Of a DNA stretch of 64,000 nt, positions 3,738 to 52,525 are shown in pieces (the stretch's first letter is position 1; each line of letters begins with the position of its first letter). This DNA comes from Salvelinus alpinus (lineage: Eukaryota > Chordata > Actinopteri > Salmoniformes > Salmonidae). Location: assembly GCF_045679555.1 (NCBI RefSeq), contig NC_092115.1, forward strand, positions 39,627,728 to 39,691,727. Reading direction: 5' to 3'. The notes beneath the pieces are model-generated. The model worked only from the letters and a program-made list of their open reading frames with translations. It made no database searches and was not told the DNA's origin. The position numbers were made by a program, and so were the translations under genes.

Positions 3738-4031
3738 TTTACATTTACATTTTAGTCATTTAGCAGACGCTCTTATCCAGAGCGACTTACAGTAGAGTGC
3801 ATACATTTTATTACATTATTTTTTTTACATACTGAGACAAGGATATCCCTACCGGCCAAACCCTCCCTACCGGCCAAACCCTCCCTAACCCGGACGACGC
3901 TATGCCAATTGTGCGTCGCCCCACGGATCTCCCGGTTGCGGCCGGCTGCGACAGAGCCTGGGCGCGAACCCAGAGACTCTGGTGGCGCAGCTAGCACTGC
4001 GATGCAGTGCCCTAGACCACTGCGCCACCCG
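3738..4031 (-). mobile_element. tRNA-derived SINE, full length, with 8-bp target duplication
   Basis: Read on the minus strand it starts with a tRNA-like head (GGGTGGCGCAGTGGTCTAGG, GGGTTCGCGCCC) and ends in TCGCTCTGGATAAGAGCG then TCATTTAGC-type tail sequence. CAAGTGAT flanks both sides (3730-3737 and 4032-4039), and the host transposon reads on across the insertion. A short unit (CCTCCCTACCGGCCAAAC) is tandemly doubled in the body. Confidence 0.88.
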
Positions 4032-4561: not shown

Positions 4562-4887
4562 TTACATTTACATTTTAGTCATTTAGCAGACGCTCTTATC
4601 CAGAGCGACTTACAGTAGAGTGCATACATTTTATTACAATTTTTTTTTTTTTTTTACATACTGAGACAAGGATATCCCTATCGGCCAAACCCTCCCTACC
4701 GGCCAAACCCTCCCTAACCCGGACGACGCTATGCCAATTGTGCGTCGCCCCACGGATCTCCCGGTTGCGGCCGGCTGCGACAGAGCCTGGGCGCGAACCC
4801 AGTCCAGCCTGGGCGCGAACCCAGAGACTCTGGTGGCGCAGCTAGCACTGCGATGCAGTGCCCTAGACCACTGCGCCACCCGGATAC
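4562..4887 (-). mobile_element. tRNA-derived SINE with internal tandem duplication
   Basis: This is the same family and orientation as the SINE at 3738-4031. The flanks share TCAGAT (4556-4561 and 4888-4893). Around 4787-4830 the unit CCTGGGCGCGAACCCAG occurs twice in a row, duplicating the B-box side of the tRNA-like head. It sits in the same Tc1 copy as the other SINE. Confidence 0.85.
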
Positions 4888-9074: not shown

Positions 9075-22347
<13,273 letters not shown>

Positions 22348-31394: not shown

Positions 31395-31770
31395 CCCATC
31401 CCTGCTGTAGAATACTATACTACACACCGTAGGATCCCTTGATCGTACAGTGCTTACTATAAAATATTGTAGTCTACTGTAGAACAGTGTTTCCTGGTCC
31501 TGGGGACTCAAAAGGGTGCACATTTGCGTTTTTGCCCTACCACTAAACAGCTGATTCAAATGTTCAACTCATCATCAAGCTTTGATGATTCGAATCAGGT
31601 TTGTAGTGCAATGCTTTGGGTCCCCAGGACCATGAATAAGAATATGCTGCTGTGGAATTCTATACTCCACACTGTGGTATCCCTTGATCGTGTGTGGTAC
31701 TTACTATAGAATTTTGTAGTATACTGTAGAATACTATACTACATGCTGTAGTATCCCTCAATCGTAATAT
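31395..31770 (+). repeat. Diverged tandem units plus a palindromic repeat
   Basis: GTAGAATACTATACTACA and ATCCCTTGATCGT recur near 31404, 31660 and 31722. Between them, 31485-31635 holds a palindromic unit (TTCCTGGTCCTGGGGAC... and GTCCCCAGGACCATG) typical of short non-autonomous elements. Confidence 0.55.
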
Positions 31771-31773
31771 ATA

Positions 31774-33343
31774 CACTGCTCAAAAAAATAAAGGGAACAC
31801 TTAAACAACACAATGTAACTCCAAGTCAATCACACTTCTATGAAATCAAACTGTCCACTTAGGAAGCAACACTGATTGACAATAAATTTCACATGCTGTT
31901 GTGCAAATGGAATAGACAAAAGGTGGAAATTATAGGAAATTAGCAAGACACCCCCAAAAAAGGAGTGATTCTGCAGGTGGTGACCACAGACAACTTCTCA
32001 GTTCCTATGCTTCCTGGCTGATGTTTTGGTCACTTTTGAATGCTGGCGGTGCTCTCACTCTAGTGGTAGCATGAGACGGAGTCTACAACCCACACAAGTG
32101 GCTCAGGTAGTGCAGTTCATCCAGGATGGCACATCAATGCGAGCTGTGGCAAAAAGGTTTGCTGTGTCTGTCAGCGTAGTGTCCAGAGCATGGAGGCGCT
32201 ACCAGGAGACAGGCCAGTACATCAGGAGACGTGGAGGAGGCCGTAGGAGGGCAACAACCCAGCAGCAGGACCGCTACCTCCGCCTTTGTGCAAGGAGGTG
32301 CACTGCCAGAGCCCTGCAAAATGACCTCCAGCAGGCCACAAATGTGCATATGTCAGCATATGGTCTCACAAGGGGTCTGAGGATCTCATCTCGGTACCTA
32401 ATGGCAGTCAGGCTACCTCTGGCGAGCACATGGAGGGCTGTGCGGCCCCACAAAGAAATGCCACCCCACACCATGACTGACCCACCGCCAAACCGGTCAT
32501 GCTGGAGGATGTTGCAGGCAGCAGAACATTCTCCACGGCGTCTCCAGACTCTGTCACGTCTGTCACATGTGCTCATGTGCTCAGTGTGAACCTGCTTTCA
32601 TCTGTGAAGAGCACAGGGCGCCAGTGGCGAATTTGCCAATCTTGGTGTTCTCTGGCAAATGCCAAACGTCCTGCACGGTGCTGGGCTGTAAGCACAACCC
32701 CCACCTGTGGACGTCGGGCCCTCATACTACCCTCATGGAGTCTGTTTCTGACCGTTTGAGCAGACACATGCACATTTGTGGCCTGCTGGAGGTCATTTTG
32801 CAGGGCTCTGGCAGTGCACCTCCTTGCACAAAGGCGGAGGTAGCGGTCCTGCTGCTGGGTTGTTGCCCTCCTACGGCCTCCTCCACGTCTCCTGATGTAC
32901 TGGCCTGTCTCCTGGTAGCGCCTCCATGCTCTGGACACTACGCTGACAGACACAGCAAACCTTTTTGCCACAGCTCGCATTGATGTGCCATCCTGGATGA
33001 ACTGCACTACCTGAGCCACTTGTGTGGGTTGTAGACTCCGTCTCATGCTACCACTAGAGTGAGAGCACTGCCAGCATTCAAAAGTGACCAAAACATCAGC
33101 CAGGAAGCATAGGAACTGAGAAGTTGTCTGTGGTCACCACCTGCAGAATCACTCCTTTTTTGGGGGTGTCTTGCTAATTTCCTATAATTTCCACCTTTTG
33201 TCTATTCCATTTGCACAACAGCATGTGAAATTTATTGTCAATCAGTGTTGCTTCCTAAGTGGACAGTTTGATTTCACAGAAGTGTGATTGACTTGGAGTT
33301 ACATTGTGTTGTTTAAGTGTTCCCTTTATTTTTTTGAGCAGTG
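31774..33343 (-). mobile_element. Foldback Tc1-like transposon (family D) with 581-bp inverted arms
   Basis: Both ends are the same 5' terminus (CACTGCTCAAAAAAATAAAG and complement), flanked by TA (31772-31773, 33344-33345). From the right end the minus strand reads a transposase start, [20 protein letters not shown], helix-turn-helix region, then [13 protein letters not shown] and [20 protein letters not shown], up to [11 protein letters not shown] near 32360. There the sequence turns back into an inverted copy of the element's own first 581 bp (31774-32354). The 3' third of the transposase and the 3' terminus are absent. The arms differ at only a few positions. Confidence 0.92.
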
Positions 33344-33349
33344 TATATT

Positions 33350-33864
33350 CAGGTAACTGCCTAAAGAAAGGAAACACTGTAGTAAATGAGGGATACAAAG
33401 TATGTTGAAAGCAGGTGCTTCCACACAGGCGTGGTTCCTGAGTTAATTAAGCATTTTAACATCCCATCATGCTTAGGGTCATGAATAAAAATTCCCAATT
33501 GCCCATTATTTTGGCTACCATGGTTAGAAGAAGAGATCTCAGTGACTTTGAAAGAGGGGGCATAGGGGGTTTAAAGGGTATGTGTGTGTGTGTGTGTGTG
33601 TGTGTCTTAGTCACCAGATCTCAACCCAATTGAACTCTTCTGGGAAATTCCAGTGCGGCGTCTGAGGATTTGTTTTCCCCCACCATCAACAAAACATCAA
33701 TTGATAGAATTTATTGTGTAAGAAGGGTGTCACATCCCTCCAATATAGTTCCAGACGCTTCTAGAATCTATGCCAACGTGAATTGAAGGTGTTCTGGTGG
33801 CTCATGGTGGCCCAATGCCCTATTAAAACACTTTATGTTGGTTTTTCCTTTATTTTGGCAGTTG
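33350..33864 (+). mobile_element. Tc1-like element (family E), short internally deleted copy
   Basis: The left end is AGGTAACTGCCTAAAGAAAG, the right end TTTTTCCTTTATTTTGGCAG. Inside are TAGAAGAAGAGATCTCAGTG and a short transposase relic (CTCAACCCAATTGAACTCTT) after a GT run at 33581-33606. It begins directly beside the foldback element. Confidence 0.7.
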
Positions 33865-34009
33865 CTGAAAGATCATACCCCCAAGACATGCTAACCTCCA
33901 CTGTTAATGTTAATTTTTCTGAATATACAATAAAGCTCAGTATTTCAATGATTTACTTCATAGTCATTATTGCTCATGGTTATCAAGGGTGTCAATAATA
34001 TCGGACCTC

Positions 34010-43873: not shown

Positions 43874-46800
43874 CTATCTTCTGTAGCGGTACCTCTTGAA
43901 GTGGAACCACAGCTGGAAGATCCCGTTGGCGAACTGACAACGGAACCCGTGGCGGTGAGAGTACTCCCACTCGCGGTTAACGATCTTAAAGGCAATGTCC
44001 TCGTATGGCGGGCCCGCATGGAACCGCAGAACACCAAAGTCCTTGTTGTCGGGACTGGGTTCTAGGAAGTACTGCGGTGTGGAACGTTTGTTGATCAGGT
44101 CCGGGTAGAAGATGTTGAACTTGTAGCCCTGGACGATCTTAGGCGGAGGGTTGTCGAAGTCGTAATGGGTCTGGTTATATTTGTTCCACTCGAAGCCTGT
44201 GTGGACCCTGTTGAAGAAGCGAGGTTTCCGGGGACGGTATTTATCAGCCCACAGGTACATCTTCCCTGTGAGGGGAAGCTCTACGCTAAACTGAGCCTCG
44301 TCCCCGCCCATGCCCTGTTTGGCGCGACGCACAAACTCATCCTCTGCATTCTCATTGGCATCACCTGGAGAACAAGGGGTGAGCGGAGAGAGAAAGATGG
44401 ATTAACAGGACGATGGGTAGAGATAGGCCTTGTAAGAATGTCTGAGCGTTTTTGTGTATGTACGAATATGGGTGTGTAAAGCCTCTTACCTGTGACGGCG
44501 AGCTGTCTGCGTGAGAGGTGTAGTTTGTGTGTGTCTTCGTCAGGTGTGATGGTGTGTGTGTCCAGCGGTTGCTCTGAGGGAAGCAGCAGTGTGGGACTGT
44601 AGCGGCCAGAGTCATACTCTGCCTGGCTCTGCTGGATCAAATCCTCCTCTGTCAGAACAGCCTCTACCACCTCACCCTTCTCCTCTCCATCCCCCTCTTT
44701 CTCCCCGTCTCCCTCCGTGGATGGGCCCGCCACTTGCTCATCCTTCTCCTCTGCATCTCTCTTTTGATTGATGGAAGAGGAGGGTCCGGGCACCTCTGAG
44801 GGAGTGTCTTTCCCACTCTCGGTCCTGTGAATGAAAAACAGAGGCGGCAAAGGTCATACCCTGTGTACCTCAGCGCGTGTGTGTGCGAGCGCGCGTAGAA
44901 AGAGGTTGCCGGTGTGCGTGCGCGTACTCACACAGCCTCGTCCTCAGGCTCCTCTTTGATGATCGGGAAGAGAGGCACACTCTCCACTCCCTGCTCCTGT
45001 TTCAGCTTGAACAGCTTCTGACGCAACACGTCCTGGTGCCTCTCTCTCAACCTACAACACAGATAGGGGTTGACATTTGTTTTCTTCATTTTAGTCATTT
45101 AACAGACACTTATCCCGAGCGGCATATGGTAGCGATTGGACACATTTCTGTACTTTTGCCTGTACTGGTCCCCAGTGGGAATCGAACCCACAACCCGGGC
45201 GTTGCAAGCACCATGCTCTACACGCAATCAACCGGTCCTCACCGTGCTCGGCCCATGAAGACCCTGACTTGCTGCATCAGGCTCTCCCAGTAGCCTATGT
45301 CCAGGTTGGATCCCCCAGCTCGGATCTTAGTCTCCATGTTGAGGTTCAGCGCCTGGAGCTGGCTGTACGTCTTTCCCTTAAACACTATCTGAACATCGGT
45401 GCTCACTGACGTGTTAATGCCATCACGACGGTCACCTGGAGAACAGAGAGACGGTCAACTAAACAGTAAACATCAGTAGACAGACTAGGGCTGCACCAGA
45501 AATGGCACCCTATGCCCTAATTATATATTACACTACTTTTAACCAGGGTGCCATTTCCGACACACCCTAGGAGAAAGAGACAAGGGGAGAAATGCCTAGG
45601 CGTAAAAAATATAGAGGTTGATGGTGGACAGCCAAGACAGAAAATGGGCCAATGAGAGAGAGCAATACTGAGATGTCCATGTAGCTGGGCCTATGAGTGG
45701 TTGAGGTGGTGCACCTGGGCCTTTTCCAGATGCCTCCAGTTTCCGGAGCTTGCTGATCTCATCCTCCGTGATGGTGGTCATATCCCTCCAGAAGTCTACA
45801 TTCTTCCCCTGCTCCAGCTCCATGTATACCTACGGAGAAAACACACAGGGTCACACAAAAAACAAACACTCTCTTCCTCTACACACCACAATTTCTCAAC
45901 CAACAAGCTCCATTTATTCTAGAATGACAGTAAGCACACACACCTTGATATCTTCAAGCAGGTCGTCCATGTCAGTGACGGTGAGTCCGTTGAGGAAGGT
46001 GTAAGGTTCGTGCATCTCCACAGCCAGGTCGTCATCCTCAGCACTGATGTACTTAGCCAAAAGGTCTATGGGCTTAGCACGGCCATCACGGATACGGATC
46101 TTAGACCTAAACACACAAACATTTATTAGCTAGAGGGCTACACACTAATCCACATCGGCAGACACCGGAGCAGTGAGCTGTTGTTTTTGGACCAGGCTGT
46201 TTTTGAGTGAGTGAATGGAACCACAGTGCCTTCGGAAAGTATTCAGACCCCTTGACATTTTCCACATTTTATTTGGTTAGCCTTATTCTAAAATGAATTA
46301 AATAAAAAAAAATCCTCATCAACAACAAAAAGTATTCAGACCCTTTGCTATGAGACTCGAAATCGAGCTCAGGTGCTGCATCCTGTTTCCAGTGATCATC
46401 CTTCAGATGTTTCTACAACTTGATTGGAGTCCACCTGTGGTAAATTCAATTGATTGGACAGGATTTGGAAAGGCACACACCTGTCTATATAAGGTCCCAC
46501 AGTTGACCGTGCATGTCAGAGCAACAACCAAGCAATGAGGTCGGAGGAATTGTCCGTAGAACTCCGAGACAGGGTGGTGTAGAGGCACAGATCTGGGGAA
46601 GGGTACCAAAACATTTCTGCAGCATTGAAGGTCCCCAAGAACACAGTGGCCTCCATCATTCTTAAATGGAAGAAGTTTGGATCCACCAAGACTCTTCCTA
46701 GAGCTGGCTGGCCGCCCGGCCAAACTGAGCAATCGGGGGAGAAGGGCCTTGGTCTGAGAGGTGACCAAGATCCCGATGGTCCCTCTAACAGAGCTCTAGA

Positions 46801-49800: not shown

Positions 49801-52525
49801 GTGTCTTAACGACCGTTCCACAGGTGCATGTTGATTAATTGTTCATGGTTCATTGAACAAGCATGGGAAACAGTGTTAAAACCCTTTACAATGAAGATCT
49901 GTGAAGATATTTGGATTTTTACAAATTATCTTTGAAAGACAGGGTCCTGAATAAGGGACATTTATTTCAGTTTAGTACACTCTACTGTGCTCTACTCAAT
50001 GTACAGTACTGTACTCAGTACAGTCCAAACTTATGAAACATACGTCTATGATAGATTCAGATTTGGTTCAACTACTTTTAAAAGTCCATGGACGCCCAGT
50101 GTCCATGGAAAGAGAAGGGGCTCATGGGTAGGTGTCAGTAAGACCTGGGAGAGGTGACATTAACTAGAGAGAAAGAGAGAGGGGTTGTCCAGACTCAGAC
50201 TGTTGTAACACTGGGTTTGACCACAAGAAAGACAAAAAAAACAGTTATGAACTGAACATAACAGTATGTCAGTGGAAGAGAGGACAGTAGCAGGTGACCC
50301 AAGCAGGTGACTATTATGATTTCACATTGTAGCTAATTCAGTTGCAGTAAGTCCGTTCCAGATTTTTTGGTAATTCCTTTGCCAAATTGGTCATGGAATT
50401 ACGAGTTTTAATCACATAATAATTCATTAACAAAATTGATATCAGTAAAATCACTATAACTAATTGGTAGGTCTACCATTAGTTGTTACTTCTGTGGACT
50501 TAATTTAACACCGATTTCAACTATCCTTGATATATTATTCAGACCCAGAAAACTTGTGTTGCATAGAAGCATACCTTCTGCAGTTCTCTGCGATTCTCCT
50601 CCTGGATACGTTTGTTCCTGTCCTTCAGGTCCTTCTCCCCCAGATGGCCAATGCCCTTCCTGTCCAGAGCCTGACCACAACAACAACATACAGAAATACA
50701 CAAATTCCTCAGAGCCTTGTCTGATGAAGCCTGAAGACCTGACGTTGAATTGAATTCTAAGTCGAGCAGAAATTAGCATTTCGACCAGGAAAGTTTCATT
50801 TCATGACCTCTACAAGCCAGAATGCTGAATAAAAGTATTGGCTATCCATGTGGTTGTTCCTTTTGCTGGTAGGAATGTGAGACAAAATTACCAACAGAAT
50901 AATGTTATCAACTCAACCTTCAGTACGCTGTTCTGTAGATCATTTGTATTTCCGGATTTTATTTTCAATACTGATGCAATTAGCACGTGACAAGCACAAT
51001 GTGGCCGAGCCTAACCGAATGGCAAACACTTCCAGCTGATTGCGAGGAAACGTGTTTCGGCTATTGTTTACATATTGTGCATCACGTGTAATGTGACAAC
51101 AAATTGATAATACAAGTGACAGAACCTATCGGCTCCGCAAAAAGTCAGGTAAACACTTTCCTGTGGAAACATTATCTCCACCTCCTACCTCCAAAAAGGA
51201 CCAACAGCATGTACAACCGGTGAAATAAGTATAAATATTTTATTTTCAAATTCTGCCTTGTAGAGACTATTGCATTTTCTTTTACAGCGACTTCTTTCAG
51301 ACTGATATTCATGGAGTAACCATTGTATCAGTCTGCTGTTTAGTCTAGGTCTGATAACCACTGCACTTCTAAAAGCAGGAGGTTGATAGTCCCATATACA
51401 CCCATTTCTCAAGTGCTCATTCTCCTCTCCCTGTCTTACCTTCTGCCATTTGAAGGTGCCCAGCAGGTTGTTGTCTCCGAAGGGGTTGTCTGCATTGGTA
51501 TAGCCCATGTACTCCTCACTCCAGCCCATCTTTTCTCTCTTCTTCCTCTCCTTGGCCTCCTTCTTGGCCAGTCGTCTGGCCCTCTTCTCCTCTGGGGTCT
51601 CCAGGGCCTTCAACATCTCTCTCTGGTTCTTCTTCTCATCTCGTACAGAGGGACCGGCCTCTCCAGACCCCGGGCTGCCTCCACGGGCCCCGCCATCCGA
51701 CCCAGAGCTCTTAGACGAGTCAGAGGATCCAGAGCGACGTCTATTACGCTCTTTGTCCCTTTGGTCCTTCACTCTGCTTCCTTCTCTCCTCCCACGGTCT
51801 TCACTCCTACGGCTGCTTCTTTCTCTGTCTCGACTTTTCCTTGGGTCCTTGTCTCGGCTTCTCATTCTCTCCCTGTCCCTCGTTCTCTCCCGCATCTGTC
51901 GTTCCCTTTCTCTGCTGGGGCTTCTGCTCCCTCTGTCTGCACTCCTCCGCCATCTCCTCTCCCGGTCATTGTTCCCCCCGTCCCTCGAACTCTTCCGGTC
52001 TGCACTAGACCCTGAGTCGGACTGGGACTGGCTCCTGCCAATCATCTTCTCTCCTTTGTCTTCTCTTCTGCTCTTCTCTCTTTTCTTCCTCCCCTTTGGA
52101 TCATCTGAGTCAGACCTGATAGATAGAAAAAGGTATAGTTGCAGATACAGTATGTGGGCCATTTTTTGCGAACTACATACACAGTACATTTTTATTTCAT
52201 ATAGCTTAACCTGTAACGTTTACCTGGATCTGTCTTTTGATTTGCCCTTCAGTTTACGTCTCTTGTCGCTGTCTGAGTCGCTTCTCGATCCGGGATGGTC
52301 TCTGCTACGGGGCGGCTGTCCTTGTCGCCTCGTAGATCCACCACTGCTGTTCGAGTTTCCGCTCTCAGAACGCGCAATTCTCCGGGGTTTTATGTTCCGA
52401 TCAATGGACCGACTCCGGCCTCTCTTCTCTTCGGGTGATTGTGATCTGCTTATTTTGGACCTGTTTCGATCCTGGTTCCGACTACGAGAGCCAGAACGGG
52501 ACCGACGATGCTTTTTTGGACCCAT
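43874..52525 (-). CDS. cactin: Cactin, spliceosome C-complex factor, ten coding exons
   Basis: Exons in transcript order: 52525-52224, 52115-51440, 50670-50575, 47975-47830, 46106-45944, 45829-45715, 45435-45243, 45051-44932, 44824-44490, 44364-43874. Total 2637 nt (878 residues), with all phases closed. The N-terminal third is an RS/RD/RE-rich low-complexity region starting MGPKKHRRSRSGSRSR. Then come a charged coiled-coil stretch (KQLRLEREREKAMRETELE), the central cactin domain (RIRDGRAKPIDLLAKYI to DEISKLRKLEASGKG) and the near-invariant C-terminal domain in the last exon, ending GIFQLWFHFKRYRYRR. Family knowledge: cactin binds spliceosomal C complexes, supports splicing of weak introns and sister-chromatid cohesion, and was first found as a Cactus (IkB) partner; it acts in the nucleus. 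The protein is about 120 residues longer than the human one, mainly in the RS region. Introns 3 and 4 each carry a Tc1 transposon; intron 7 carries a SINE. Confidence 0.96.
45090..45238 (-). mobile_element. tRNA-derived SINE in cactin intron 7
   Basis: On the minus strand: GGTTGATTGCGTGTAGAGCA (A-box region), GGGTTGTGGGTTCGATTCCC (B box), and a tail GGATAAGTGTCTGTTAAATG. The head resembles an alanine-type tRNA but is not cloverleaf-intact. It starts about 5 nt inside the intron after exon 7 (donor at 45241-45242). Confidence 0.8.
45490..45575. repeat. Short dispersed repeat in cactin intron 6
   Basis: GAAATGGCACCCTATGCCCT and, inverted, AGGGTGCCATTTCCGACAC frame TACACTACTTTTAACCAGGG. This is a common salmonid palindromic repeat of unknown class. 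Non-coding. Confidence 0.5.
46225..47768 (+). mobile_element. Tc1-like transposon (family A) in cactin intron 4
   Basis: The ends CAGTGCCTTCGGAAAGTATT (46225) and ...TACTTTCTGAATGCACTG (47768) are both present, length 1544 bp. Flanks are CA on both sides instead of TA. Transposase blocks: MRSEELSVELRDRVV near 46536, ALKVPKNTVASIILKWKKFG, WSDETKIELFGLN near 46990, and an ORF at 47108-47557 with GRRFTFQQNNDPKHTAKTMQ and SPDLNPIEHLCRDLKIAVQQ. A few stops and shifts break it. It is antisense to cactin. Confidence 0.9.
48612..49975 (-). mobile_element. Tc1-like transposon (family F) in cactin intron 3
   Basis: The left terminus CTCAGCAAAAAAAGAAACAT follows TA at 48610-48611. The other end is decayed near 49975. 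The minus-strand ORF 49392-48751 (213 residues) reads [55 protein letters not shown] and LDLNPIEHAWDLLDRRVRAW, a DDE catalytic domain (D, D, E of DESRF, HDN, PIEH). The N-terminal part is at 49702-49490, with a deletion between. It is in the same orientation as cactin. Confidence 0.88.

Follow-up and report, generated by a model that had tools for sequence, protein, structure and literature searches.

A foldback Tc1 family in Salvelinus alpinus, most likely founded by one ancestral rebuild of the 3' side of an ordinary element

The window, a 64,000-nt stretch of the Salvelinus alpinus genome, contains a hairpin element of 1,570 nt whose two ends correspond to one and the same end of an ordinary Tc1 transposon. 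We consider it highly probable that this element belongs to a single foldback family of non-autonomous Tc1 transposons, which arose by one rebuild of the 3' side, has been mobilised in trans, and whose arms template each other and exchange sequence with ordinary copies. Most likely the conversion happened once, in an ancestor of the at least 1,531 copies in which the junction is exactly preserved. The origin and the success of foldback elements are hard to study once the parent element and the original junction have disappeared. Here, one genome holds the ordinary Tc1, the junction at base level, an older form (1,414 junctions) and a younger one (117), as well as copies in which a variant occupies the left arm, the right arm, both or neither.

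The element extends from 31774 (CACTG) to 33343 (CAGTG) and is composed of two inverted arms of 581 nt each, separated by a loop of 408 nt. The right arm (32763-33343, minus strand, reading inward) is the original 5' end of the element and the left arm (31774-32354, plus strand, likewise reading inward) its inverted second copy, while the loop (32355-32762, minus strand) holds the transposase centre of the right-hand copy, as judged from its translation and from comparison with ordinary copies. No other inverted pair reported in the window is as long as 31769-32357 with 32760-33348 (589 nt, 99% complementary). Aligned over 31774-32354, the arms mismatch at three of 581 positions (31840, 32048 and 32350), and they are thus near-exact reverse complements with few differences, as the original prediction had it. 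TA lies on the outward sides at 31772-31773 and 33344-33345, also as predicted; we read it as the target-site duplication, and all 67 copies of the window's form that are complete have it in these places. The turn, expected near 32355-32365, could be placed at 32354/32355 from the sequence and from genome-wide junction counts, with 0-1 nt shared across it. A single-strand DNA fold at this junction is not unusual (z -0.35), and the breakpoint is therefore not explained by a local hairpin.

The insertion point of the element is a TA-rich stretch directly adjoining a different, shortened Tc1-like element (33350-33868), which lies outside the foldback and has a second shortened copy at about 17789-17970; the ends of this family are CAGGTAACTGCC, and it is from these ends that we take it to be Tc1-like. 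The left flank (31402-31765) contains degenerate repeats with a unit of about 45 nt (CTGTAGAATACTATACTACA...). Elsewhere in the window, Rfam at gathering scores returned only UnaL2, twice: these LINE 3' elements (3750-3803 and 4573-4626, minus strand, 823 nt apart) adjoin a near-identical local duplication (3816-4031 / 4645-4882). An exon of a cactin gene lies at 43874-44332 on the minus strand (CactinC_cactus, E 2.5e-61), and a candidate cactin exon at 51185-52189 on the same strand was assigned by reading and gave no Pfam match.

The nature of the two ends becomes apparent from comparison with ordinary, full-length Tc1 copies. A string running past the junction point in the ordinary element has 2,910 exact occurrences in the 2.37-Gb genome and none for its control. 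At the 10 measurable loci among the first 12, the copies are about 1,536-1,628 nt long including some nt of flanking sequence, and L092, an ordinary copy, measures exactly 1,574 nt. Their 5' and 3' ends have in common a terminal repeat of 28 nt, perfect in most copies including L092, and diverge beyond it. Measured against these copies, both ends of the window element are of the 5' type and the 3' third is missing: nt 1-989 of the ordinary copy are retained, and the last ~590 nt have been exchanged for an inverted copy of nt 1-581. This comparison supports the claim that the 3' part of a Tc1 was replaced by an inverted 5' copy. The accompanying claim of two 5' termini applies to everything from position 29 inward, whereas the outer 28 nt could be the terminal repeat of either end.

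Ordinary copies also provide what the foldback has lost. A frame of 338-341 aa is open in four of the 12 complete ordinary copies examined, and L040, L045, L046 and L047 carry HTH_Tnp_Tc3_2 and DDE_3 domains. L040, the only copy compared with solved structures, matched the Sleeping Beauty transposase; its translation has 34 residues between the second D and the E, counted by eye, so that we take its motif to be DD34E. The window copy, in turn, retains a truncated transposase frame from ATG 33046 (32573-33046, minus strand) within a frame of 172 aa (32573-33091), in which HTH domains were matched and no DDE_3 domain was found at E 0.001. A second copy of the frame start, beginning at ATG 32071 and contained in a frame with HTH domains, lies within the left arm (32071-32354, plus strand). 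If the catalytic residues are placed as in Sleeping Beauty, the loop stops before the second and the third. The frame is moreover shifted by an 8-nt tandem duplication (32566-32581, minus strand) that is missing in some foldback copies and carried by three of 12 ordinary ones; the tandem-repeat block around it (32540-32600) varies from 44 to 61 nt across 67 copies and sets the transposase frame. Because its frame is shifted and, in addition, ends ahead of two of the catalytic residues, the window copy has no complete transposase of its own and is non-autonomous. Its membership in Tc1/mariner is indicated by the TA duplication in 72 of 72 complete copies and by the presumed DD34E transposase of the autonomous relative, and its foldback character by the 581-nt arms, the 408-nt loop and the TA-flanked copies with different flanks. 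With 1,570 nt and transposase remnants it is not a MITE, since MITEs are usually shorter than 600 bp (PMC3573991) and carry no remnant of coding sequence.

Searching the same genome for the junction revealed how abundant the rearranged form is. A 26-nt string across it, in the window's form with A at 32350, has 117 exact occurrences including the window, against none for the reversed-pattern control, and the junction is thus not a product of chance. The older form, with G at 32350, has 1,414 (control 0). Since only exact strings were counted, the resulting total of at least 1,531 is a lower bound, and it exceeds half of the 2,910 counted for the ordinary element with a shorter string, which loses fewer copies to mutation. 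A longer probe of 121 nt gave 40 scored perfect matches among 218 candidates. For the window's form 78 loci were fetched and 66 proved complete, making 67 with the window copy; the remaining 12 (truncated, deleted or interrupted, L057 only just so) fell below the completeness cut-off and stand outside the arm statistics. For the older form, five of 10 fetched loci were complete, a small sample out of 1,414, and the other five were left out in the same way. Relatives were sought also in viral contigs, prokaryote genomes, phages and plasmids, and none was found, as expected for a fish transposon; pattern matches in viral contigs (2) and in prokaryote genomes (34) were not confirmed.

Base 32350 separates two subfamilies: A marks that of the window, and its presence in 67 of 67 copies simply follows from the probe and the string used to find them, both of which contained it. 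Mean pairwise difference is 0.94% among these 67 copies, 1.90% among the five of the older form and 1.58% between the forms. The first 37 copies, picked by a perfect 121-nt match and therefore biased towards young ones, lie 0.49% from the majority, and the next 30, picked by the 26-nt match, 0.54%. The window copy thus belongs to a young subfamily with 117 exact junctions. Most of the variants that had been considered private to its arms are subfamily variants found beyond this copy. We had also regarded the A at 32350 as an error of the junction event, an idea that was dropped, given that G stands at this position in the older form and the join there is clean.

For the ordinary copies, the mean pairwise difference over nt 1-989 is 1.80% (1.05-2.95, n=10, the two most diverged of 12, L049 and L050, being excluded). 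Work on Atlantic salmon (PMC2198921) describes an element, DTSsa2, with a TA target, CACT ends, an ITR of ~40 bp and a length of ~1,600 bp, and assigns it to a short-ITR subclass with the most recent burst, at ~1.8 to 0.9% divergence; DTSsa7, with an ITR of ~20, has CACT ends too. In their TA target, CACT ends, length of ~1,536-1,628 nt and mean pairwise difference of 1.8%, our ordinary copies resemble DTSsa2 as it is described there, and the ordinary element fits the published DTSsa2, matched by description rather than by deposited sequence. It seems, then, that the foldback multiplied in the same burst as the DTSsa2-like ordinary element and that the young subfamily appeared late in it.

The two arms of a copy do not evolve independently. 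Across the 72 complete copies the arms are ~98-100% alike. In seven deep copies, picked for depth (the five of the older form, L054 and the window copy), the arms differ by 0.82% within a copy versus 1.73% between copies, and none of 2000 re-pairings was as low; over all 72 copies, the arms of one copy differ by 0.87% and re-paired arms by 1.03% on average, again with none of 2000 as low. A single inversion followed by free divergence predicts a within-copy difference at least as large as the most distant between-copy difference. The opposite is observed, and therefore the arms exchange sequence. L103 illustrates this well, as its arms do not differ at any of 576 positions compared, yet it lies 2% from the window copy. 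The variants at 196, 282, 344 and 381 occur in one arm, in both or in neither, depending on the foldback copy; for site 381, the count among 68 copies is both arms 61, left only 2, right only 4 and neither 1. At site 31840, the joint states in 67 copies are A/G 44, G/A 11, G/G 8 and A/A 4. At 15 sites the two arms carry the same change, where shuffling gave a mean of 1.8 and 0 of 1000 shuffles reached as many; with the three most polymorphic arm sites included, the figures are 18 and 4.7. Relatedness among copies inflates these shuffle tests.

The two arms thus undergo concerted evolution, probably with one serving as template for the other. Among changes private to one copy, just 3 of 135 are present in both arms, so exchange after insertion is slow and most of the transfer must be either tied to the mobile phase or old. 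Because the arms exchange sequence, their high identity is no simple clock of recent origin. The original prediction had read it in that way; with at least 1,531 junction copies, a recent conversion gives way to what was probably an ancestral event.

Sequence appears to move between foldback and ordinary copies as well. L068, L072 and part of L061 carry an ordinary-type tract in one arm; ordinary copies therefore seem to donate sequence to foldbacks, and mixed arms are partly explained by this conversion, without any arm-to-arm transfer. Transfer in the other direction is suggested by L092 (C27:47309650-47311500), which has the ordinary structure and is identical to the majority of young foldbacks at 986 of 988 aligned nt (99.8%). 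Its 3' part is generic: 40 of 231 candidates were scored, and none of the other 39, at ~98%, is a close relative. Relative to ordinary copies its substitutions are spread evenly (11 in 989 nt, 7 in 585 nt), a density that fits L092 as a parent or as a recipient alike. Its candidacy as the parent of the foldbacks was weakened by L054, L100, L103 and L104, which suggest that several of the shared variants arose or assorted within the foldbacks. We infer that L092 received its variants from a young foldback, appreciably the likelier of the two readings. In a tree of 82 half-element sequences the foldbacks do not form one clean clade: L068, whose right arm has the ordinary tract, falls outside them and L092 inside, with node supports toward L092 of 0.26-0.95.

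These data bear on the strongest of the competing explanations, according to which the same junction formed repeatedly from different ordinary parents and the arms of each copy match because they were newly made. It would account for two copies of the older form, L100 and L103, that differ in their variant sets and are each arm-symmetric at the diagnostic sites, and for L104, symmetric at 6 of 8 arm sites. Against this, there is no evident reason why a junction with 0-1 nt of homology should recur exactly. In addition, 196A, 282C, 344T and 381A occur in varied combinations in foldbacks and in none of the 12 first-listed ordinary copies, and L092, an ordinary copy that does carry all four, was chosen for its likeness to foldbacks. 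Moreover, some copies carry a variant in a single arm. Overall, we regard repeated origin as improbable and retain a single founding event followed by exchange.

We see a far smaller chance that gap repair recently rearranged an ordinary Tc1 at the window's locus itself. The three mismatches in 581 arm positions speak for such a local event, but the same junction is present 117 times, and 1,414 times more with one base different, and these other copies refute it for this locus. Furthermore, every one of the 72 complete copies, of which 67 have the window's form and five the older one, is bordered by TA at either end, and these copies have different flanks. Among their 2,556 pairs, none shares both flanks. 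The original prediction had suggested that the unit may have moved in this form, and the foldback has indeed transposed as a unit, many times, judging from the TA that borders each of these 72 copies and from the lack of any pair sharing both flanks. The target around the TA is AT-rich and palindromic in the first 37 copies. Mobilisation was presumably in trans, by the transposase of ordinary copies.

An equally slight chance attaches to the idea that the foldback is dead and old and has been multiplied by segmental duplication only. A tandem array of three foldback copies with a 3.2-kb unit on C8 speaks for some such multiplication, and in eight of the 2,556 pairs one flank abutting the element is shared (71.8-99.0% identical over 86-298 nt). 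Pairs among L038, L067, L070 and L072 have one flank in common at ~99% over ~290 nt, and L029 and L036 likewise share one flank only, the listed pairs of this kind being 96-99% identical over 86-298 nt. We read the one-flank pairs as probable separate insertions next to members of one dispersed repeat, much as the window copy sits next to a repeat. Duplication alone, however, is difficult to reconcile with the 0 of 2,556 pairs sharing both flanks, with the TA on both sides of every complete copy and with the spread of the window-form junction, whose 100 listed occurrences of 117 fall on 29 of contigs C1-C30.

The array itself (L022, C8:13349000-13358900) includes two near-identical copies without the last part of the right arm. 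Separately, breaks or interruptions in L062, L079, L002 and L056 fall within ~20 nt of each other, at element nt ~1012-1032 in the window's orientation, and this spot just inside the right arm, at the loop edge, is possibly fragile.

Two further explanations had been raised with the original prediction itself, and we give hardly any credence to either. Long inverted repeats are generally known to be prone to false palindromes in assembly or sequencing, but an artefact of this sort would repeat the flank on both sides, while here the flanks differ exactly from the TA outward and one junction recurs genome-wide at many unrelated sites. Two oppositely oriented Tc1 insertions, one inside the other, might be entertained in a window with many related repeats, yet the junction contains no terminal repeat and no element terminus lies at the centre, position 989 being joined directly to 581.

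Starting from the structure, the copy number, the different TA-flanked sites, the likeness of the arms and the transposase-length frames elsewhere, all of which are read directly from sequence, we propose the following course of events. The 3' side of an ordinary DTSsa2-type Tc1 would have been rebuilt once by synthesis from the element's own 5' end; given that both ends are of the 5' type, it is the 3' side of the break that would have copied the 5' end, and copying could have proceeded through the shared terminal repeat. The copied tracts of 989 and 581 nt would then have been joined with 0-1 nt of homology. The join of 989 to inverted 581, with 0-1 nt in common and no filler in the older form, is compatible with end joining of two incomplete repair tracts, and template switching during gap repair is accordingly what we infer as the origin. 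Copying of the 5' end could have been directed by the 28-nt terminal repeat or by the palindromic, TA-rich target, and a switch inside the outer 28 nt looks the same as a switch at the very end. With its two 5' ends, the product would have been cut and inserted at TA by the transposase of intact ordinary copies. As its ends are interchangeable, repair of one arm could be templated by the other, which would keep the arms similar, and sequence would also pass between foldback and ordinary copies.

A bolder reading, which we put forward tentatively and on balance rather doubt, is that of a self-templating transposon, in which each repair after transposition can rebuild one arm from the other, and which spreads and returns sequence to its source family. 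If this were true, variants, better end sequences included, would be fixed at both ends at once, and one structural accident would have created a selfish element whose concerted evolution follows a mode peculiar to it. Both a gain in mobility from two identical 5' ends and the mutual repair of transposon arms are testable. Quite apart from the mechanism, more than 1,500 palindrome junctions, each belonging to a 1.6-kb palindrome if complete, could give rise to double-stranded RNA, to inversions and to errors in the assembly of fish genomes.

We found no description of a foldback Tc1 family of salmonids in the open-licence literature searched, and the terminal sequence letters of the element had no match there; the family may already be present, unnamed, in some repeat library. 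In the text on DTSsa2 (PMC2198921), the words 'palindrom', 'hairpin' and 'non-autonomous' are absent, and the elements described there are ordinary ones, whereas here we deal with a foldback form.

Several known systems share individual features with this family. Ds elements usually have the centre deleted and both natural ends kept, and according to Rubin and Levy in 1997 they reportedly result from abortive gap repair. Like Ds, the foldback has a rearranged centre after what would have been incomplete gap repair; unlike Ds, one of its ends is replaced by the other. FB, TU, FARE and Tc4 are counted among the foldback transposons. Unlike foldback transposons in general, however, the present family allows its source element to be named and its junction to be given at base level. 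As in foldback transposons such as Tetris (PMC4079207), its long inverted repeats nearly meet around a loop. Bari1 of D. rhopaloa is reported with a complete transposase and identical inverted ends of 255 bp in a subfamily usually having short TIRs (PMC4877112). It is likewise a Tc1 element with identical long inverted ends, but the foldback arms described here include coding sequence and the 3' third has been lost. A further comparison is with the two-TIR and recombinant-TIR copies of Galileo in Drosophila mojavensis, a member of the P superfamily with a 7-bp target duplication and 170 copies of several structures. In Galileo, two-TIR copies outnumber nearly complete ones, TIRs within one copy are 98-100% alike, and its authors propose that a broken TIR is repaired from a TIR1 template with internal sequence being carried along (PMC3573991). 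The foldback family thus resembles Galileo in its long inverted arms and in the proposed repair of one end from the other, and differs from it in being a Tc1 with one junction and more than 1,500 copies of that junction.
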